From a virus: 26,049 nucleotides of DNA. A model generated the notes under the pieces. The model had not been told where the DNA came from and ran no database searches. It saw nothing but the letters and a program-made list of their open reading frames with translations. The stretch lies in the IMG/VR virus record IMGVR_UViG_3300022698_000005, positions 1 to 26,049 of that record. One strand, given 5' to 3'. The translations under genes were made by a program, and so were the position numbers. Of the stretch, positions 1-26,049 are shown piece by piece. How positions within the stretch are numbered: position 1 is the first letter of the stretch; each line of letters starts with the position of its first letter.

Positions 1-1035
1 GTTCTCATCAAAACATCAAGTTCTTTTTTCGGGATAGTCTCAGACATACCTTCGATGTATTTTGATAAGATCGTGACAGTATCTTCAGCTTCGTTGACGA
101 TGTCCTCGTCATCCTCCAGATCTAGATTGAGGTGATCATCCACAACCTGAACCTGAATCGGATCTTGCTTGATCAACTCATCCATATACTTGTCAAACCA
201 GTAGGGGTTGCTCACTGATTGTTTGATGACTTTGATATACGAACCAGCTGCAAGAGTAAAGTCATCAGAGGTAATCTCCTCTAGAGTCTTACCTTCGTCG
301 CTGTAGAAGAACTTGTGGAACATACCACGTGGGTTCTTAACAAACTCCAACTCACGAGTCTCAGTATCATAGATATGGAAACCTTTGGGGTCACCATAGT
401 CTGACCATGTCAACTCATACGGACAGCCCAGATAGTCGATGTTCTTAGTCGTAGACTTATGGTGGAAGTGCCCAGAGAATACACGGTCAAAGCGATCGAA
501 GTCGCTGATCTTCAGACCATGATCGTTCATGTTGGTACGATCCATCAAACAGCCAGCAATCTCAAAGTGACCCAACACAACTTGCGCTTCGGTGTTCTTC
601 ATGAACTCCATACTATCAGCGTAGTTGCTGTTGTTAATCCATGGGACGATAGCGTGGGGAATACCGTCTGCACATTTCCATAATGTCGGCTCAGAGTACC
701 AGTTGACGTCAGGGTAGTTCTCCATCAACTCACCCATCGCATTGATATCATTGGTATTTTTGTAAGGTACGTCGTGATTACCTACAATAACATCAACGCT
801 TATTCCTGCGTCTGCACACGGCTGAAAGAACACTTTCTTCATACGATTTAGAGTGACGTAGTTGATATACTTACGACGATCAACAATATCACCAAGGTGA
901 ATGATTTGATTAATATTCCGCTTCTTTAGCTCGGGAAAGAAAACGTTACTGTAGAAGTCTTCGAAGTAATCGAGGAATGCAATTGAGTCATTACGGACAC
1001 CGAAAGTGTGTGTCAGTAATAAGTGCGACTTTCAT
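1..1035 (-). CDS. 47: gp47-like recombination endonuclease subunit (SbcD/Mre11 family), 3'-truncated by window, frameshifted near start
   Basis: Nuclease subunit of the gp46/gp47 complex that resects DNA ends for recombination-dependent replication; calcineurin-like metallophosphatase family. Read on the minus strand from the ATG at 1033-1035 (strong GGAGG 8 bases upstream) it gives MKVALITDTHF and then stops at 991-993. Skipping one base at 1002 restores a frame that is open to the window edge and carries GVRNDS, the GD-x-x-D motif (HLGDIVDRRK), GNHD, a GHFE segment and GHFHH, all metal-site motifs of the family. About 345 codons are present, so only a short C-terminal end is missing. The broken motif is the first metal ligand set (D-x-H-F-G). 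The cause is either a sequencing error, a real lesion, or +1 frameshifting at TTT-CGG. Family assignment is secure; whether a full protein is made is not. Confidence 0.85.
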
Positions 1036-1090: not shown

Positions 1091-1930
1091 TTATTTTAAT
1101 GTCTCCAAATATCGATTAGATTGGGCTTTAGTCAAAAGACCGACGCTGACCATCCTATTCAGAATAGATACAGCATCTTCTTTGTAGACCGGCGGTACAT
1201 CATTCGTAGTATAACAAAAGTCCTCAACTAAGTCAACAATTTCTTTCTCATCCATAGGTCCATCCTTCCCGACCCTGAAGGCGGGGTCTATACCATTCAA
1301 ATAAAACTTCCTATACAGATGCTTAGAGATTCCTGTCTTGTCCGTAAAATCATTCCATCCCAAATAAACATCGCCATTATATTCTATACGAGTAGATAAC
1401 AATTCTTTAGATTTCTGAGCACCAACCTTTGCCCTTTTTCTCTGTTCTTCATAATATCCATCAAGATCTTCCCGCTTCCTTTTTTCAGTCAATTCCTTCA
1501 TCTTGACGGAAGCATTCCATTTTCTTTCAGAAGCACCAACCCATGACTGAGTAACTGCATCGGATAAATTTTTCGCCCAGTCAACACAGGTTCTAGATGG
1601 GTGATTGGAAGCAATAAACTCTGACCATTTTTTACGAAATACATCATAGCCTTTAGAAGATAAGACCTCAGTGTTTCCATAAACCATTCTGTGCATAGCC
1701 CACATCATTTTATAGTAGTCTTGACCTTCTGTAATTTTGGTCAATAATTTATGTGCAATGTAATGTTCCCTTGCGGTTAAGTTCACCAAGTTAGAATCAT
1801 CATCAGAACCGCCCATTGATCTTGGAACTATATGATGGGTTTCACAATACCCCTCACCCTTAACCAATGGAAACGTTTTTCTTTTTTCTATCAGAGAAAA
1901 ATAAATCTTTTTGTATTTGTTTTCTATCAT
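1091..1930 (-). CDS. Free-standing HNH homing endonuclease
   Basis: 279 residues. The N-terminal third holds an HNH nuclease core: C-E-T-H-H-I-V-P-R-S-M-G-G-S at about residues 29-42, followed by SNLVNLTAREHYIAH (46-60), the typical phage homing-endonuclease pattern with metal-binding and catalytic histidines and asparagine. The rest is basic and probably contacts DNA; the segment around 182-215 (YNGDVYLGWNDF..TGISKHLYRKF) looks like a modular recognition domain, an inference. It sits between gene 55 and gene 47, a pair of core T4-type genes, and appears visibly more AT-rich than its neighbours, consistent with insertion as a selfish element. A late promoter and hairpin lie directly upstream and overlap the start codon. 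The target site cannot be deduced. It is not inside a recognisable intron. Confidence 0.85.
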   Translation of the reverse strand: MIENKYKKIYFSLIEKRKTFPLVKGEGYCETHHIVPRSMGGSDDDSNLVNLTAREHYIAHKLLTKITEGQDYYKMMWAMHRMVYGNTEVLSSKGYDVFRKKWSEFIASNHPSRTCVDWAKNLSDAVTQSWVGASERKWNASVKMKELTEKRKREDLDGYYEEQRKRAKVGAQKSKELLSTRIEYNGDVYLGWNDFTDKTGISKHLYRKFYLNGIDPAFRVGKDGPMDEKEIVDLVEDFCYTTNDVPPVYKEDAVSILNRMVSVGLLTKAQSNRYLETLK

Positions 1931-1964
1931 TACTTACCCCAAGTAATTCGGTACTAGTAATGAT
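1926..1964 (-). promoter_or_regulatory. RNA hairpin occluding the HNH gene's ribosome binding site and start codon
   Basis: In minus-strand RNA, ATCATTACT (1964-1956) is a perfect 9-base complement of AGTAATGAT (1934-1926), which contains the ATG at 1930-1928. After a two-base bulge, TACC (1953-1950) pairs with GGTA (1938-1935), which takes up half of the GGGG Shine-Dalgarno. A competing shorter hairpin is also perfect: ATTACTT (1947-1941), loop GGGGT, AAGTAAT (1935-1929), which puts the Shine-Dalgarno in the loop. RNA started at the adjacent late promoter (about 1959) lacks most of the first arm and could form only the second structure. Pairing is seen; the regulatory role is inferred. Confidence 0.7.
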
Positions 1965-1972
1965 TATTTATA
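1965..1972 (-). promoter_or_regulatory. T4-type late promoter (TATAAATA) for the HNH gene
   Basis: Exact match to the T4 late -10 box recognised by gp55-RNA polymerase. Expected start of transcription is about 1959, giving a leader of about 29 bases to the HNH start at 1930. The box directly abuts the 5' arm of the hairpin at 1926-1964. Confidence 0.75.
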
Positions 1973-2004
1973 AAAACAAGGTTTTCAAAAAGCAATTTTC
2001 ATTA

Positions 2005-2562
2005 TTACTCTCCGACTGTCCGGCGAACCTTTTTCTTTTTGCGTTTGTTGGCTTCAAAGGTTTCAATAAAATCTGACATATACTCTTCAGTCCACTCGCT
2101 TGACTTAATACCGTCATTATAGTTTGTTCCGGTATCGTGACCTTGGCGGTCTGCGGTTTCGCCCAGAACATTGACGTGCTCAGTAACCTTATACTTGGTA
2201 TACAGATACTTTTTCTCTTTCTGAATACGTCTCAAGAATGCATAATAAATGATTTGAGTGAAATAAGCAAATGGATTCTTAGATTTTTCTGGGTTGAAGT
2301 TGTCGATATATTGAAGGCAGTTCTCAATGCCATCGCTGATCATATCGTCTCGGAATGAATAGTTCGAGAAGTTGGGCTTGTACGACAAGTGAGTCGCAAT
2401 CTTCATAATGCAATCAGCAATATACAGCGGGACTTTGGGTCTTTCAAGGTCGTTGTCTTTAGCGTGTTGTACGCTTTCACGGAACTCAATCATTGCGCCA
2501 AGGAACTTCTTGTTGTCTACGTAATACGGTTTCTTGCGCTTTTCTTCTCTAGTTTCTGCCAT
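2005..2562 (-). CDS. 55: gp55-like sigma factor for late transcription
   Basis: 185 residues, the same size as T4 gp55, the small sigma factor that directs host RNA polymerase to TATAAATA late promoters together with the sliding clamp and gp33. The middle region (about 83-135) has the sigma region-2-like pattern: RDDMISDGIENCLQYIDNF followed by NPFAYFTQIIYYAFLRRIQKEKK, matching the family's signature. The C-terminal end is highly basic (KRKKKKVRR), where T4 gp55 has its clamp-binding tail, but no clear clamp motif was identified. ATG start with GAGG about 6 bases upstream. It follows the 122-residue gene by 11 bases in the early/middle recombination operon, which fits the need to make gp55 before late transcription. 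The many TATAAATA boxes in this window are its expected targets. Confidence 0.93.
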   Translation of the reverse strand: MAETREEKRKKPYYVDNKKFLGAMIEFRESVQHAKDNDLERPKVPLYIADCIMKIATHLSYKPNFSNYSFRDDMISDGIENCLQYIDNFNPEKSKNPFAYFTQIIYYAFLRRIQKEKKYLYTKYKVTEHVNVLGETADRQGHDTGTNYNDGIKSSEWTEEYMSDFIETFEANKRKKKKVRRTVGE

Positions 2563-2573
2563 AATAACCTCAA

Positions 2574-2942
2574 TTATTGAAGGGTGGGTTTAGTAATATA
2601 ACCCGCCAGTTCGTCATCATCATCTTCTTCGATATCATCGTAACGCAATTCAGCTTTGTCGCCAGCGTCCGTCATAGCTTCCTGAACCCGATTGTAATAC
2701 TTCAGCAGTGCTTCAGTTGCGGGTAGAGTAGCAAGGATATGATCCCTGTTAATACCAATCAGATTCTCACGCTTGTCGACCGGAACCCAGAAGTCCATGA
2801 AGTAGATAACCTCATTGTCACTTTCCCGTTCCGTCAGCTGAAAAGGATTAATGACAGAAGTAACGTCACGACCCTCATCAACAACTTCGGCGATAACTAG
2901 ATCACCGTTTGACATTTTCAATATTTTAACTTCATCCATCAT
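2574..2942 (-). CDS. Small acidic conserved hypothetical protein, possibly Sm-like
   Basis: 122 residues, unrecognised by name. The N-terminus (VKILKMSNGDLVIAEVVDEG, residues 4-23) has the look of a small beta-barrel of the Sm/LSm type, in which a strand is followed by a G-D/E-x-V-I-A-x-V turn; this is a resemblance only. The C-terminal third is strongly acidic, with a D-D-I-E-E-D-D-D-D-E run near residue 105. Its ATG overlaps the uvsW stop as ATGA (2942-2939), with AAGG a few bases upstream, so it is translationally coupled to uvsW and followed closely by gene 55. Position suggests a role in recombination, replication or late-gene control, but nothing in the sequence proves this. Confidence 0.8.
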   Translation of the reverse strand: MMDEVKILKMSNGDLVIAEVVDEGRDVTSVINPFQLTERESDNEVIYFMDFWVPVDKRENLIGINRDHILATLPATEALLKYYNRVQEAMTDAGDKAELRYDDIEEDDDDELAGYITKPTLQ

Positions 2943-4408
2943 TTCAACCTTATGTTATAGATTTTATAATCAAATTCTTCTTCATTATACATTTTAACGC
3001 GAATAGCAAAGTGCTTTAGCGTATGGTTGTTATGTGATTTATAAGAGATATCATCGGCAATGTCATACAACGTCGCCATCTCTTTATTATCGCCCTTCCT
3101 CAATGCCCGTCCGATAGACTGTAAATTACGGACTCGAGACTTAGAGGGTGAAGCGAATATCACGTTGTGTAAGTTCTTGATGTTAACGCCAGTAGAGAAC
3201 GTACCGTAACTTGCCACGATAATTGCGTTGTCCTCTTTTTCTGTGATCGCCCTAACATCTTCCCTCACTGTAGCGTCTACCCCACCATGAATGAAAAATA
3301 CTTTTCTATCAGGTTCAACGCTATCTAAGATACTATCATATAGCACTTTACCGTGTTTTTCAACCATCTGGAACAAAACAAGGGTGTTACCTTTCCGTGA
3401 CACTGCAAGGTTCTTGATGAATGCGTTGCGCTGTTCGTTTGATACGAGGAAGTTGATCTCCTCTTGATACGACGCCTTCTTCAACTCCTTACATGTAGCT
3501 TCAGGATACTTCAACAGAAGACCCTTGATCCTGAATGACGATAGAGTTCCCTTCTCAATCAGTTCCTTGGTCTGGATGACTTTCATCACCGAACCGAACA
3601 GACCTTCCAATACTAACTTATTTGTCTGCGTACCGTCAAGCGTTCCCGTCAGTCCGAATCTATACTTGCACTGATCCAGCTTACCCATGATTGAGGTCAG
3701 GGAACTAGCCTTGAACTGGTGAGCTTCGTCTCCGATCACGACATCGAACTGATCGAACCACTTTTTAGGTTGCTTATAGATCGACTGCCACGTGGATACA
3801 AATAAATTTGAATTTTCGCAATCTTTTTGTTGACCTTGCATGATTAAGTGAGTAGAATAGAACTTGTCACTATGATTATCAGAATAGTCTTCGAAGTCGC
3901 TGTTCATCTGGTGAACCAAACTAACAGTAGGAACAATGAGTAATGCCTTGCGGCATTCTTGCGTCAGCAAGTATTTTAAGATACAGTAAATGATAAAAGA
4001 CTTACCAGATGCTGTGGGTGACAGGATCAACGCTCTGTTGTTACGCAAAGCATGAGCAACTGCTCGCAACTGATAGTCTCTAGGTTCGTATTTACCCTTC
4101 AAGAATTCTTCAAGTTCATTGATCGCAATATCATTGGTGATAGAGAGGTTCTCATCAATCACACACTCATAACCACGATCATGGCAGAACTTTTGTATTC
4201 TTCTAATCAGTCCCTTGTATATAGTATACGAGCCAGTGTTGAATAATCGAATCTTACCGTCCCACATTTTGTTTCGGTAACTTGGCATAAACTTAGCACC
4301 TGGAACCTCAAACGTGAAATAGTCTGATAGTTCCTGTGCGGTGCCCCGGTCGCACTCAACCTTTACATAAACCTCGTCCTTGGGATGTATTATTATTCTT
4401 TCTGTCAT
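2939..4408 (-). CDS. uvsW: UvsW-like RNA-DNA and DNA helicase
   Basis: 489 residues, close to T4 UvsW (about 500). UvsW is a superfamily 2 helicase that unwinds R-loops and branched DNA, moving replication from origins to recombination-dependent initiation. Visible motifs: PRDYQ near 109, Walker A SPTASGKS at 130-137, DEAH box GDEAH at 226-230, motif III GLTGTLD at 252-258, and motif VI QSIGRALRKG in the C-terminal RecA-like domain. The first 100 residues match the small N-terminal DNA-binding domain of UvsW. Its ATG overlaps the uvsY stop as ATGA (4408-4405) and its own stop overlaps the next start in the same way, so the three genes are tightly coupled. No motif is missing. Confidence 0.95.
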   Translation of the reverse strand: MTERIIIHPKDEVYVKVECDRGTAQELSDYFTFEVPGAKFMPSYRNKMWDGKIRLFNTGSYTIYKGLIRRIQKFCHDRGYECVIDENLSITNDIAINELEEFLKGKYEPRDYQLRAVAHALRNNRALILSPTASGKSFIIYCILKYLLTQECRKALLIVPTVSLVHQMNSDFEDYSDNHSDKFYSTHLIMQGQQKDCENSNLFVSTWQSIYKQPKKWFDQFDVVIGDEAHQFKASSLTSIMGKLDQCKYRFGLTGTLDGTQTNKLVLEGLFGSVMKVIQTKELIEKGTLSSFRIKGLLLKYPEATCKELKKASYQEEINFLVSNEQRNAFIKNLAVSRKGNTLVLFQMVEKHGKVLYDSILDSVEPDRKVFFIHGGVDATVREDVRAITEKEDNAIIVASYGTFSTGVNIKNLHNVIFASPSKSRVRNLQSIGRALRKGDNKEMATLYDIADDISYKSHNNHTLKHFAIRVKMYNEEEFDYKIYNIRLK

Positions 4409-4836
4409 CCAGTAGTGAACCTTAGCCAGTCAATGGCAGATTTAATTTGGAACCCACGATTGTTGACGCTTTTAATAACAGACTCAACATAGCTGACTTT
4501 CTCTTCTTGTAATGCCAGCTTTAGGTTCGCTTGAATAAAGTCATCGTCAGACTCAATGTAAGTCTCGACTTCGTTCTTTAGGATTTTCTTGTAGAACTGT
4601 TCACGCCCCAACTCTTCAAGTTCTTCTTGATCGAGTTCCCCCTGATAATATTCAATCAGAGTGCGCTTTAGTTTTTTGAGGTTGGCACGCATACGGAACA
4701 TTGAAGCCCGTTCGCCCATATAAATTTTGAGGTACTTATTGTGTACCTGAGGAATCTTTGATGACTCGTGACCTAGTTCGGTCTCGTCAATCTTACAGTC
4801 TTTGTCCCACTCAGCAATAATTTCTTCAATCTTCAA
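4405..4836 (-). CDS. uvsY: UvsY-like recombination mediator
   Basis: 143 residues from a proposed TTG start. UvsY loads the UvsX recombinase onto single-stranded DNA covered by gp32. The sequence has the helical, charged character of T4 UvsY (137 residues) and its conserved end, S-x-x-NRGFQIKSAIDWLRF near the C-terminus, which parallels T4's KSRGFAIKHI. An alternative GTG start at 4845 would add three residues, but its AGG would touch the start codon. With TTG at 4836-4834 the AGG is about 8 bases away and the N-terminus (KIEEIIAEWDKD) lines up with T4 UvsY from its first residue. First gene after the sigma-70-like promoter at 4871-4899 and coupled to uvsW by an ATGA overlap. Confidence 0.85.
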   Translation of the reverse strand: MKIEEIIAEWDKDCKIDETELGHESSKIPQVHNKYLKIYMGERASMFRMRANLKKLKRTLIEYYQGELDQEELEELGREQFYKKILKNEVETYIESDDDFIQANLKLALQEEKVSYVESVIKSVNNRGFQIKSAIDWLRFTTG

Positions 4837-4870
4837 TTCAATCACCTAATCAATAAAATAAAATAATGTA

Positions 4871-17346: not shown

Positions 17347-18090
17347 TTACCCCATGAGGTCAAAAGAAGGCATTGAGTATTTGGAGATAACCTCTTCTTC
17401 AAGACGAAGAATTTCTTCATTCGCTTCTTGGTAGATTTGTTCACCATTAAATGTGACTCCACCCGGAAGCTGCATACCCGTGAACTTTTTGAGGTTAGTG
17501 CCCCATTGCTTTTTTATTAGCTGTGTGGCATACTTCCGCAACCAACGATCACCCCAAACATCAGAGAAAGATTCTGGGTCAGAAACACGATAACATTTGA
17601 TGATGATGTACTCGCCAGCAACTACACTATCTTCCCAGTCCATGTCAATATGGAGTTGATCTAGGTGGCGGTTGAATCTGAATGGCTGTCTACCAACAAA
17701 TAGTTCATTCAGGAGGGAAACCCTTTCCATGCTCATAACATAGTTTGCAAATTGACCGTTAGCCCAGTTATGAACTTCACTAAGACTAATTTGGTACTTT
17801 AAGTTGAATATGTTATTAGAACTCGTACCGCCTCCTATGGGAAAGATATCTACAACCCCAGTAATAGATTCAGGGAGCGTAATATATCCATTGTCGATAT
17901 CAGATTGTTCTACTTGGTGTTTGTAGTAATCTTCGTATGTACCATCATAATGGAAGTCGCGATAATACTCTAGAGCATCGTCGATCCTATCTTGAACTTG
18001 GTCTTCATCGACGTTAACTTCAATGACTGGGTGACCGAGTTCTCTCAAACAATATTTTTTGAACTCTGTTCTTGTTGTTGGGGTTGCCAT
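17347..18090 (-). CDS. 13: Neck protein gp13
   Basis: 247 residues; T4 gp13 is longer (309). Head-completion/neck protein that works with gp14. Signature: FKKYCLRELGHPVIEVNVDEDQVQDRIDDALEYYRDFHYDGTYEDYYKHQV (about 10-60), then ITLPESITGVVDIFPIGG, a NLKYQISLSEVHNWANGQFANYVMSMERVSLLNELFVGRQPFRFNRHLDQLHIDMDWED stretch, IIIKCYRVSDPE, and WLRKYATQLIKKQWGTNLKKFTGMQLPGGVTFNGEQIYQEANEEILRLEEEV near the end, all in the order found in T4-type gp13. The ATG has AGGA 8 bases upstream, but that AGGA lies in the 3' arm of a perfect hairpin (18097-18121). Its late promoter overlaps the other arm. It begins the 13-14-15-16-17 run. Confidence 0.95.
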   Translation of the reverse strand: MATPTTRTEFKKYCLRELGHPVIEVNVDEDQVQDRIDDALEYYRDFHYDGTYEDYYKHQVEQSDIDNGYITLPESITGVVDIFPIGGGTSSNNIFNLKYQISLSEVHNWANGQFANYVMSMERVSLLNELFVGRQPFRFNRHLDQLHIDMDWEDSVVAGEYIIIKCYRVSDPESFSDVWGDRWLRKYATQLIKKQWGTNLKKFTGMQLPGGVTFNGEQIYQEANEEILRLEEEVISKYSMPSFDLMG

Positions 18091-18096
18091 ATAAAA

Positions 18097-18121
18097 AGTC
18101 CTAGAGGTATAATCTAGGACT
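18097..18121 (-). promoter_or_regulatory. Hairpin covering the gene 13 Shine-Dalgarno, also terminator-like
   Basis: Minus-strand RNA: AGTCCTAGA (18121-18113), loop TTATACC, TCTAGGACT (18105-18097), a perfect 9-pair stem followed by TTTTAT. The AGGA that serves gp13 is within the 3' arm. RNA started at the overlapping late box (about 18115) keeps only three bases of the 5' arm. The hairpin may therefore both end transcripts from the fibre operon and hide the gp13 start on read-through RNA. Confidence 0.7.
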
Positions 18122-18128
18122 ATTTATA
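18121..18128 (-). promoter_or_regulatory. T4-type late promoter for genes 13-17
   Basis: Exact TATAAATA, expected start near 18115, leader about 25 bases to the gp13 ATG at 18090. Its last base is the first base of the hairpin stem. Confidence 0.8.
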
Positions 18129-18159
18129 ACTTTGCTAGTCGAGGGGTTATTAGATAGTT

Positions 18160-21196: not shown

Positions 21197-21649
21197 TTAT
21201 CCAAATACTATAGCCATTGCAATGGCAGATCCTAATCCGATACCTTCGGCGGCACCTGGAGGTCCAGGAGGTCCAGCAACCGTTGATGCGGGTCCAGTGG
21301 GTCCAGTGGGTCCAGGAGGTCCAGGAGGTCCAGCAACCGTTGATGCGGGTCCAGTCGGTCCAGTGGGTCCAGTCGGTCCAGTTGGTCCAGGAGGTCCAGG
21401 AACCGTTGAATCAGCTCCAGTTGGTCCAGGAGGTCCAGTATTACCCTGAGGTCCAGTTGGTCCAGTGGGTCCAGTTGGTCCAGTTGGTCCAGTTGGTCCA
21501 GTGGGTCCAGTTGGTCCAGTTGTCCCTGATGCCGCAATGAACCACAGCCCTTTAGTTGAGTTGTACTGATAGGTGACGTCGTTACCGTTAATATCAGTAA
21601 CGACAAACTCTGCCCCGTTAGCGGGAGAGTCTGGGAAGTTAATTGCCAT
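21197..21649 (-). CDS. Collagen-like Gly-X-Y repeat protein
   Basis: 150 residues in three parts. Residues 1-41 form a short head ([32 protein letters not shown]) of the kind that starts many marine phage fibre proteins. Residues about 42-135 are Gly-X-Y triplets, mostly Gly-Pro-Thr, with several Gly-Pro-Pro, interrupted by [10 protein letters not shown] and twice by [10 protein letters not shown]; such repeats form trimeric collagen helices in phage fibres. The end ([15 protein letters not shown]) is glycine-rich and hydrophobic. Its start lies 11 bases inside the end of the large fibre gene, with GAGGTG five bases upstream. Near-identical 9-base units at DNA level make length changes by recombination likely. 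Probably a rigid spacer or fibre accessory; the oxygenase in the same operon could act on its prolines. Confidence 0.9.
21247..21520 (-). repeat. Tandem 9-base repeats coding Gly-Pro-Thr
   Basis: Units read GGTCCAGTT or GGTCCAGTG on the plus strand, coding Gly-Pro-Thr in the collagen-like gene, with two longer near-identical blocks near 21259 and 21311 containing the AACCGTTGATGC interruption. Confidence 0.9.
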
Positions 21650-24600
21650 TCTTCACCTCAGCTAGTTCCTTTTTAAGTTGATCAATTTGTTCTTGCTGCT
21701 CTTTCATAGCTTCGATTAGTACTGCTACCATGTTACCATAAGCTACAGACTTTGTACCCATTTCATCGTCTTGAGTTGAGACTGCCTCGGGTACAACCGC
21801 TTCTACTTCTTGTGCGATTAAACCAATATGACGAGACCCGTCTTTATCGTACTCAACACCTCTTAGGGATTTAACCTTTTCGATAGAGTTATTTATAGTG
21901 GTGATATTATCTTTTAATCTTCCGTCTGACGTAGAAGTAACACTACCGGTAACAATTAAATTTCCTGTTAAGGTGAAGACTCCAGGAGAGGTTTCTTCAA
22001 GAGCCCCGCCTCCGCCTCCGCCACCGCCGACTTGTACCCACTGGTTAGAAGAACCGTCAGCGTAGTAGACATACATAAAACCGTATTGAGTATCGTACCA
22101 CAGATCGCCATCAGAAGGTGAAGAAGGAGGGGTGTCTGAAGTTTCTACCCCACCACCGCCGGCAGCATTAGATGTAGTGGCAATGGTCCAAGTTCTATTA
22201 CCTGTACCGTCTACGGACTGAGAAGCAGTACCTGTCACATCACCTGTTAGCGTTACAGTGTGGGTTCTAGCAGTAGTCCATTTATCTGCGTTGGGGTGGT
22301 AGCTATCGTGGAATAACTTATCAACTGATACCTGAACTAACCCTGTAGGTGCAGTCGTGGTTACAGAATCAAAATTATACGTTACTGTGCCGTATTGAGA
22401 TAATCTAGTAAAAGCTACTTGTTGGTTATAATCTGAAAGCAGTGCCCAAATTTCATAATTATTAGATGCATCCTGCTTATAGAAGAATTGCCAGTCATCA
22501 GTTACTGCCCCACTCTCCATCTGAAAGACTTTAAAATCTATAAATGTACGAGTGCCAATATGTATATGATAAGAAGCTCTAGTTGGATCACCATAATCAC
22601 CACTAGAAGATAGTATACCAACAACGCTGTCATCAAAATCATCTAGAGTAAATAATTTTACAAATCTTCTAGCTCCGCCTGATGAGCCGGGAGAAAACCA
22701 AAATTGTCTAGTAAATCTATTATCGGCTTCAGACTCAGTATAGTAACGGTCATCATGAGTATGATTAGCTGGAGCCGCACCTACATCACTAGCAGTAATG
22801 TTACGAGTACTTACAGTAGCATTAGCATCAGTAACGTGACCGAGAGTATCTGTGGTAACGTTAAAGTCTAGGTCGCTAATTACTGTTGCACCAGTAAGAG
22901 CACCTGTGTCTACATTAATATCATCCCCTGCATAGCTTGGGTGGGTATATACAGTATCTTGAGCCAGATTACGCCAAGCAGTCCAAGAGCCATTATAGTA
23001 ACTACGAGAATAAACATTTTGACTGTTATAGATGTAATATGTTTGGGCAGTATGAAAACCATTACCGTACATATCATCGTCAACAGTTAAAATGCCTGCC
23101 AAATTTTCTGGGTAATTGCTTCCTGCCGAAGCATCAGCATTGCTGTTTTGGGAATATACCCCTTGATTACGATAACTATTTAAGTCAGCACCTGAAGGGA
23201 TTTCGCCTCCATTTAAACGAATAAAGGAGTTAGATATAAAAGTACCAAAAGAAGCAGCTGCACTATATGTCGTGTCGGGAGGTGTCGCCCAAGTAAATGT
23301 TCCATCGCCATCAGAACGTAAATACTGTGTAGTATTTCCATTTCCGGATACATTTAATTCAGATGCACTAATTGAGTTGTCGTCAATTTGAGCAGATAGA
23401 GATACATTAGAACTACCGTCAAGAGATACTGAACCAGTTAAATCGCCACCTAAAGTTATTGTTCTAGCTGTAGTCCACTTGTCAGCATTGGGGTGATATT
23501 CATCGTGGAATACTTGTTCGCTGTTTTGTGTGATATTACCTTTGAAATCAAACGTGGCGTTATTTGTATCCCACGAAATAACTTCAGTTGTATTATCCGA
23601 CTCATAGAACTTTATTGTAGCGTCTGCACCAATCTCTAGATTACCTGCGCCATCGTGACGAACAAAACCTTGACTACCTGCAGTTGTACCGAACGTTACA
23701 CCTAAGTTATCAGTATTGTTGAACGTCAGCTGCCCAGTCATGGTATCGCCAGACTTTCTCACATAGCGAGTATCATGCGTGTGGCTGTCATTAGTGACGC
23801 TGGTAGTAATGTTGATGTTGCCCAGATCCGTCATCGTGGCAGTGCCAGTAACGTCGCCTGACAGAGTTACTGTTGGATCTGGTTTATTGGTTACGTTAGT
23901 CCAATCAAGGTAGTATGAACCATGTTGACCATCTAGTAGGTCTGCGTCTAATCCAGAAGCTGCACCATCAACGGTCTTGATTTTAGCTAGAACATCATTC
24001 GCTGTATATGAAGATGATGCAAGCTTGGCATTTAATTGTGTCTGGATATTAGAAGTAACGCCATCCAGATAATCATATTCGGTAGAAGTTACACCAGTCG
24101 CCCGAAGATCTTTGGCGTAGTTCAAGTCTGCGGCAACACCAGTGAACCCTTGCAGCTTGTTCAATTCTGCAGATGATGCAGTGACATTCGTGATACCGTC
24201 AGCAAGCTGTGCAGTACCCGTCAAGTTACCAGTTACGTTCGCATAAACGTTATTAGCTTGGAAATCGCCCATACGGAATGATGCGTGCTCAACATCAATG
24301 TTACCTTCAGGCTCCGGAGAGTATGCATCAAACACTTTGTAGCGATTATCGGTAACGTCATAGAAGAAACCGATGTGAGTATAACCGATACCTGTTGTTC
24401 CAGTGTTTCTGTTACCAACAATACCCAAGTCCACATTTACTGGAGTTGCAGTTGATTCCCATTTGTCGCTAGAGGTGTGACCTGTGGTTGCGTTAAACTC
24501 AACAGAAACACCCAATTCTAACTCTTGGGGCGAACCAGTGATACTTACACCAGTTGCTTCGGTAGTTGAGAAGTTATCTTTTGACCACTCGAATGTGTCT

Positions 24601-26049
24601 GGAGTTCCTGTTCCGTCAATACGGACATAGTATGTTGTAGCGGATGTACCTTCGAACGTTCCTGAGAATACTGCGTCATCCAGACCAGTACCAGTGAACG
24701 TTGTGTTGCCCATAGAACCAGAGCCACCCAGATATACAAACGTATCGTCTACGACAAGGTTGTTTACCGCAACGGTTGACTGTGTACCGAGAATGTTCAA
24801 GTCACCAGCAATTGTCACGTTTTCATCAAAGCGAGCATCACCCGTGACCCTCAAAGTCTCGAACGTGTGTGACTCCACATCAACATAAATACAGCCCGAT
24901 GTGGTATTAGCAATCAAACACAAACCAATATCAACAGTGAAGTATGGGTATGTCGGTGCTGTTGATTGGAGTTGTCCGTTAGCTACTGCAACATGAACTC
25001 GTTCGCCTACCTGAAGGTGGGCTGTATTGATATCACCAACCAAACCACGTGTAGTAACGAAACCGAAAGATTCATTGTCAATATCATGAGTGGCGATACC
25101 TACTGCGGATGAACGCATTTCAGTTTCGGCTGAAGCTAATGAAATTGTGGGAACTGTATTCTGTTCGCCGCTCAAGTATACAGGAGAACCGTTGGTAATT
25201 GTTGCGCCCGAGTTGTTGTATACTCGGATCCATTCTTCCTGACCGATCTGGAGAGTGATATCATCAACGTTGTTGTAGAAGGCTAGTGCCTCATTACTAT
25301 GATCGTAAAATAAACGACCTTCGTTATGATCCGGTGTAGTATTGACGCAGAGGTCGATGTAGTTGTCTACACGTAAACGAGAAATTTCAACGTTTGATGC
25401 CAGATCAGTTGTTATATTAAGTGTATTAGAACTGAACGATCCAGACCCCGAAACATCGCCGGTTAGGTTGACTGAAGCAGTTGCACCTAATCTTGAGTTG
25501 ACCAAAGACAAAGTATTCGCAACTTGCATACGATCGTTCGTTATTGCGAGCGTGTTAGCAACTTGCATTCTGTCATCAACCAATGACAAAGTATTGGCGA
25601 CCTGCATTCTATCACCAACCAACGAAATAGTGTTGGAGACCTGCATACGGTCTGCGACAAGCGTGTTTACGTTGGCAACCTGCATACGGTTGCGGACACT
25701 TGCATCAGAGATAGCGAATAGCGAACTCACGTTAGCGACCTGCATTCTATCCCTGACTAGGGTGGTTGTATCATTGATAAATGATACTACGTTAGCAACC
25801 TGCATCCGATCGGAAACGTCACTGTTTGTCGCAGTAATTAAAGAATTGACGTTAGCGACCTGCATTCTGTCATTGACTAGAGATACAGTATTAGCGACCT
25901 GCATTCTATCATCAACAAGAGCGTTAGTGTTTGCAACCTGCATACGATCGGCAACCAATGCATTTACATTGGCGACCTGCATTCTGTCGTTAACCAATGA
26001 CAAAGTATTGGCGACCTGCATTCTGTCATTGACTAGAGATACAGTATTA
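21639..26049 (-). CDS. Giant tail fibre protein with repeat shaft and C-terminal S74 chaperone, 5'-truncated by window
   Basis: More than 1460 residues; the frame is open to the right edge, so the true start lies outside. At the visible N-terminal end, twelve units beginning MQV(A/S)N, each 13 or 20 residues, form a shaft (25491-26049). Next comes a long beta-rich body with repeated LTGDV(T/S)G strands, two copies of [12 protein letters not shown] near 23490 and 22290, and H-x-H motifs ([16 protein letters not shown]), which in long tail fibres bind metal along the trimer axis. A run of eight glycines lies near 22010. The last 96 residues start SDGRLKDNI and contain [17 protein letters not shown] and a heptad-like tail: the S74 intramolecular chaperone, which trimerises the fibre and then cuts itself off near that serine. 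Probably the main receptor-binding fibre; the collagen-like gene follows. Confidence 0.9.
21890..21897 (-). promoter_or_regulatory. Possible internal late promoter (TATAAATA) within the fibre gene
   Basis: Exact TATAAATA on the minus strand, but inside codons for Thr-Ile-Asn-Asn of the S74 domain. RNA from about 21884 would supply the collagen-like gene (start 21649) and those after it, which otherwise show no promoter in this window. Could be chance, since the spacing to a start (about 235 bases) is much longer than at the other boxes. Confidence 0.3.
25491..26049 (-). repeat. Tandem 39/60-base repeats coding the MQVAN fibre shaft
   Basis: Twelve full units plus a part unit at the edge. Nine are 39 bases (13 residues, for example [13 protein letters not shown]) and three in a row are 60 bases (20 residues). 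The last 39 bases of the window repeat exactly at about 25857-25895, so units are close to identical at DNA level. Confidence 0.9.

Follow-up and report, generated by a model that had tools for sequence, protein, structure and literature searches.

A MobE-type HNH homing endonuclease gene between gp55 and gp47 that is probably expressed only late, through a hairpin cut off by its own late promoter

Two reviews set out a late-promoter hairpin mechanism explicitly for I-TevI, I-TevII, I-TevIII, T4 segB and Aeh1 mobE, with e, soc and others as further examples (PMC2988022, PMC3014915). In the T4 leaders of I-TevI, segB, e, soc and 49, early read-through RNA hides the start codon, and a late promoter yields RNA from which the 5' strand of the hairpin is dropped. 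We describe here a gene with a leader of the same kind in a 26,049-nucleotide stretch of viral DNA, the whole of which we call the window. The T4 genes differ from it in that they encode other proteins (GIY-YIG endonuclease, lysozyme and so on) and have independent sequences.

Aeh1 mobE offers a more direct comparison. Like the gene in the window, it is a free-standing HNH gene inserted in a core gene region, and the two HNH domains are 47% identical over 83 amino acids. It also has a start-hiding hairpin, with a late promoter-like TCTAAATA within the hairpin region, and the predicted drop in the cost of opening the start on going from read-through to late RNA is 9.5 kcal/mol, against 7.2 in the window. 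Aeh1 mobE differs in its insertion site (nrdA, as opposed to gp55/gp47), in its unrelated leader sequence and in its longer, G+C-rich stem, and no second hairpin has been proposed for it. Because this published case is a free-standing HNH gene of the same family, the mechanism is not new and the HNH protein in the window is not the "unrelated" endonuclease that the initial annotation took it to be.

The mobE genes of Vibrio phages phi-pp2 and TCU_VP02_YC belong to the same HNH family (55% identity over the N-domain). There, TATAAATA overlaps TAGTTCATA/TATGAACTA, running straight into a 9-bp arm that pairs with the start codon region and leaves the Shine-Dalgarno sequence (SD) in the loop. These genes differ from ours in lying between nrdA and nrdB and in having no second hairpin; the consulted passages of the Vibrio phage genome paper make no mention of hairpin regulation of mobE. 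The same calculation gives drops of 7.5 kcal/mol for a Vibrio mobE homologue, 11.6 for T4 segB and 14.4 for T4 e. T4 I-TevIII was uninformative as a control: it gave no drop, and the start annotated for it belongs to a defective, deleted gene.

An HNH gene at the gp55/gp47 junction

The open reading frames and profile searches identify the minus strand of the window as a T4-type late and recombination region. Its genes uvsY - uvsW - small ORF - gp55 - HNH - gp47 form a string on one strand, with the following features:

4405..4845, minus strand: UvsY recombination mediator, with a sigma-70-like TTGACT-17-TATACT (4899-4871) ahead of it
2939..4408, minus strand: UvsW helicase, upstream of the HNH gene and transcribed in the same direction
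2005..2562, minus strand: gp55 late sigma factor, directly upstream of the HNH gene
1985..2002, minus strand: ATGAAAATTGCTTTTTGA, probably left over from an ancestral gp47 start, right behind gp55 and immediately ahead of the insert
1091..1930, minus strand: MobE-type HNH homing endonuclease gene, 279 aa (PF01844, phrog_655)
3..1035, minus strand: gp47, SbcD-like recombination nuclease subunit, directly downstream of the HNH gene
minus strand: portal, sheath, terminase and neck genes, named from ORF inspection alone

The HNH protein matches PF01844 with 22.6 bits (cut-off 21.4) and the homing endonuclease family phrog_655 with E 5e-40. Its alignment keeps the catalytic HH, N and H columns, and its N-domain is 47-56% identical to MobE/MobD-like HNH proteins. 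Judged by its sequence, the gene is a MobE-type free-standing HNH homing endonuclease. These two profiles and the neighbouring genes bear out the earlier proposal that a string of T4-type recombination genes carries an HNH homing endonuclease. In several of the closest gp55 relatives no gene separates gp55 from gp47, and we therefore regard the gene as an insertion. Evidence for the remnant ATGAAAATTGCTTTTTGA comes from relatives without the HNH gene, which read GGAGTAA(A/C)ATGAAAATCGCTTTGAT..; in the window, gp47 now starts on the far side of the insert. Near 1001 the record has a one-base shift in the gp47 frame, owing to a sequencing error or to a broken gene.

The C-terminal module of the HNH protein (residues ~181-226) has no match in annotated phages and is common to a GIY-YIG endonuclease found at the same junction in other viruses. 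In these four loci (L086-L089), the GIY-YIG gene lies at gp55/gp47, and the C-terminal modules of its product and of the HNH protein in the window share 58% identity. Two different nuclease domains, HNH and GIY-YIG, have thus become attached to a single presumed recognition module at one junction, a case of domain swapping between homing endonucleases.

The HNH genes most closely related to that in the window are found in four other contigs (L001-L004, with HNH starts at 4001, 4001, 4001 and 2402). They lie out of frame inside intein-like inserts in the terminase large subunit gene, and both frames are open in all four. An HNH insert concealed out of frame has been described in a phage methylase (PMC11855218). 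Elsewhere in the window, 21197-21649 and 21639-26048 hold tail-fibre-like ORFs with collagen-like GPTGPT and MQVAN-type repeats.

Predicted start sequestration on read-through RNA and its predicted loss on late RNA

The start of the HNH gene is surrounded by the following elements:

1965..1972, minus strand: late promoter element TATAAATA, directly adjoining the 5' arm of hairpin 1
1956..1964, minus strand: hairpin 1 5' arm ATCATTACT, 5 of its 9 bases absent from RNA starting at 1959
1950..1953, minus strand: TACC, which pairs with GGTA (1938-1935) to give hairpin 1 four inner pairs
1937..1940, minus strand: GGGG, Shine-Dalgarno-like, half covered by TACC/GGTA
1926..1934, minus strand: hairpin 1 3' arm AGTAATGAT, holding the HNH start codon ATG (1930-1928)
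1929..1947, minus strand: hairpin 2, ATTACTT-GGGGT-AAGTAAT, weak (-4.2 kcal/mol) and not clearly above chance

ATCATTACT and AGTAATGAT are a perfect 9-bp inverted repeat. The sequence features and pairings first noted here are real and all exact, and the position of the late promoter against the arm that pairs with the start was confirmed base for base. TATAAATA occurs 8 times in the window, where 1.5 copies are expected, and all 8 are on the coding strand; since the virus also encodes gp55, T4-type late promoters are credible here. In T4, TATAAATA lies at -13 to -6 relative to the RNA start. By this rule, late RNA of the HNH gene would start at about 1959.

We consider it likely that the MobE-type HNH gene between gp55 and gp47 is expressed late only, by way of a hairpin that its own late promoter cuts off. 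RNA reading through from uvsY-uvsW-gp55 would cover the HNH gene and carry the arm AUCAUUACU; we found no terminator-like site on the HNH strand between 3942 and the HNH gene. Pairing of AUCAUUACU with AGUAAUGAU, extended by UACC/GGUA, would bury the start codon along with half of the SD, and ribosomes would be unable to initiate there. Late transcription directed by gp55 would begin at TATAAATA, with its start near 1959, giving RNA without most of the arm. The start on this RNA is predicted to be about 7 kcal/mol easier to open, and endonuclease would then be made.

Folding energies are consistent with this scheme. Hairpin 1 has a minimum free energy of -12.5 kcal/mol (z -3.1), a stability reached in 0 of 200 shuffles, and shuffling the 5' part gave a 9-bp stem around GGGG in 20 of 5000 cases. 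Opening the start region costs 13.9 kcal/mol. This makes it the second hardest to open among the 27 gene starts in the window, and only 1.7% of minus-strand ATGs have an opening cost at least as high. From the SD to the AUG, the cost is 13.1 kcal/mol on read-through RNA versus 5.8 on RNA from 1959. The drop of 7.2 was reached in 0 of 1000 randomisations of the 5' part that is absent from late RNA, and the contrast between the two RNAs persists at 20-25 C. Of six further late genes in the window put through the calculation, five gave drops of 0.9-3.7 kcal/mol. The claim that the late promoter is placed so that late RNA loses the start-sequestering 5' arm is thus supported. Late RNA does keep some structure (opening cost about 5), which counts against this scheme. 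The proposed likeness to the silenced T4 genes can be kept as regards late-only expression, for which the energies argue well; its novelty and its "unrelated" endonuclease cannot, given Aeh1 mobE.

Alternatively, the hairpin could be incidental, a late promoter having come to abut a chance inverted repeat in an AT-rich leader. Such leaders fold readily, and the GIY-YIG gene at the same site has no hairpin. Like the HNH gene, that gene occupies the gp55/gp47 junction, and it has a TATAAATA of its own 28 nt upstream; it differs in its nuclease domain and in its open, unstructured leader, for which the drop is about -0.5. A late promoter with an open leader at this junction implies that a hairpin, or silencing, is not obligatory at the site. 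The randomisations speak against a chance origin, as does the recurrence of the design in homologous mobE genes, and we judge an incidental hairpin unlikely.

The initial annotation went beyond silencing and proposed a switch with two states, in which hairpin 1 silences early RNA and hairpin 2 (ATTACTT 1947-1941 and AAGTAAT 1935-1929, loop GGGGT) presents the SD in its loop and aids late translation. ATTACT does occur twice, and each copy is able to pair with AGTAAT. If the RNA starts at 1958 or later, hairpin 2 becomes the minimum free energy structure and the SD is 68-77% unpaired. However, hairpin 2 is worth only -4.2 kcal/mol, the AU of the AUG is paired within it, and stems as long around GGGG arose in 107 of 5000 shuffles (2%). 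Late RNA as a whole is no more stable than its own shuffles. Late RNA from 1959 was said to form only the second structure; this is wrong, because the remnant of hairpin 1 (UACU/AGUA with UACC/GGUA) forms at least as well from that position, at -4.7 kcal/mol, and neither it nor hairpin 2 is better than shuffles. Folding both RNA versions therefore upholds sequestration of the start on read-through RNA and does not yield hairpin 2 alone on late RNA. We find this two-state refinement improbable.

The inverted repeat might instead work at the DNA level: the endonuclease could bind it as an operator at the late promoter and so repress its own gene, as I-TevI does. According to the review literature, the operator of I-TevI coincides in part with its late promoter and is similar to its homing site. 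Beside the promoter in the window, TCATTACTAGTACCGAA agrees at 13 of 17 positions with the 5' coding region of gp47, which could plausibly be the homing target; AGTAATGA is found again where gp47 starts. A 13/17 match was nonetheless reached by 328 of 2000 shuffles, and RNA pairing already explains the arm that covers the start codon. An I-TevI-like operator seems to us no less improbable than the two-state switch, and we retain the silencing hairpin as the preferred reading.

Searches of IMG/VR with the HNH protein, a degenerate start pattern and a pattern of promoter plus both arms found no second copy of this leader, and an Rfam scan of the window gave no match.

Two other late leaders stand out. 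At 18090-18130 of the window, the gp13 late promoter abuts a hairpin arm, with GTCCTAGA/TCTAGGAC followed by TTTTT. The hairpin is terminator-like, late RNA would be without it, and the drop in opening cost is 9.9. In another locus (L029), a late gene near gp55 whose product begins MYLTKQDV has NATAAATA 28 nt upstream and a very strong sequestering fold; its drop of 17.7 is the strongest in the survey.

Late promoters and leaders across the HNH family

In the cyanophage literature, the late motif is NATAAATA. We surveyed 85 distinct HNH leaders from IMG/VR and named phages, a set in which de-duplication removes kinship only in part, and found NATAAATA within 75 nt in 56 of the 85, against a shuffle mean of 4.15 (maximum 10). 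For the 25 leaders whose promoter lies at -20 to -60, pairing of the arm ahead of the RNA start is stronger with its own start region than with those of other loci (mean -6.3 vs -5.1 kcal/mol when swapped, permutation p about 0.001). This result also speaks against incidental pairing. Clear cases are L093, L100, L102 and L126, where the bases around the end of TATAAATA complement the start region, for example ATAAACAT/ATGTTTAT. The drop in opening energy has a median of 4.5 in HNH leaders vs 3.3 in a mixed control set of 40 other late genes that includes the known silenced T4 e and segB (p = 0.045). So modest a difference across the family counts against silencing and in favour of an incidental hairpin, although the silenced genes among the controls temper this.

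Two further leader types were seen in the survey. About 20 HNH genes have a conserved structured leader RNA, GTAGTTCGCG..CCAACTACTCTAAYGCTT..AAGGAGCATCAGCA ATG, that starts right after NATAAATA (L106, L110, L111, L113, L115, L130, L134, L138, L143, L148-L151, L154, L155, L157, L165, L169, L172, L173). In an alignment (A4) spanning about -75 to +22 of the HNH starts, 10 of 13 pairs have changes on both sides, with 53 cells vs 14 in shuffles and 0-3 in slid controls. The ATAAATA at these loci is also complementary to TATTTAT just past the start codon. Rfam gave no match to the structured leader in 14 scanned loci, ten of them structured-leader loci. Fourteen HNH genes have NATAAATA exactly 13 nt ahead of the ATG (L103, L114, L123, L125, L141, L144, L146, L156, L159, L163, L168, L170, L171, L177). 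By the T4 rule, late RNA from such a promoter would start at the A of the AUG and would be leaderless. Several of these loci have terminator-like and sigma-70-like sequences upstream, as judged by eye. Near one HNH gene of the survey we noted a permuted tmRNA match (L110, 1474-1826), and around another lie eight clustered tRNA matches (L139).

One could envision that phage HNH homing endonucleases have repeatedly evolved late-only translation, by a promoter placed in the hairpin arm, by a leaderless start 13 nt from the promoter and by a structured leader of about 70 nt, with the gene in the window an example of the first design. We offer this as a tentative proposal that may well prove wrong.

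For the gene in the window, we infer both an effect of the leader on HNH translation and a biological benefit from it. The mechanism itself is already known from T4 and Aeh1 mobE; what is new is the insertion site, the leader sequence and the uncultured virus in which they occur. The locus would extend the classical late-promoter and hairpin regulation of T4 to a MobE-type HNH gene in a new location, between gp55 and gp47. Given the enrichment of NATAAATA ahead of HNH genes (56 of 85, against about 4 expected), late-only expression may be general in this endonuclease family and a general rule for HNH selfish genes.
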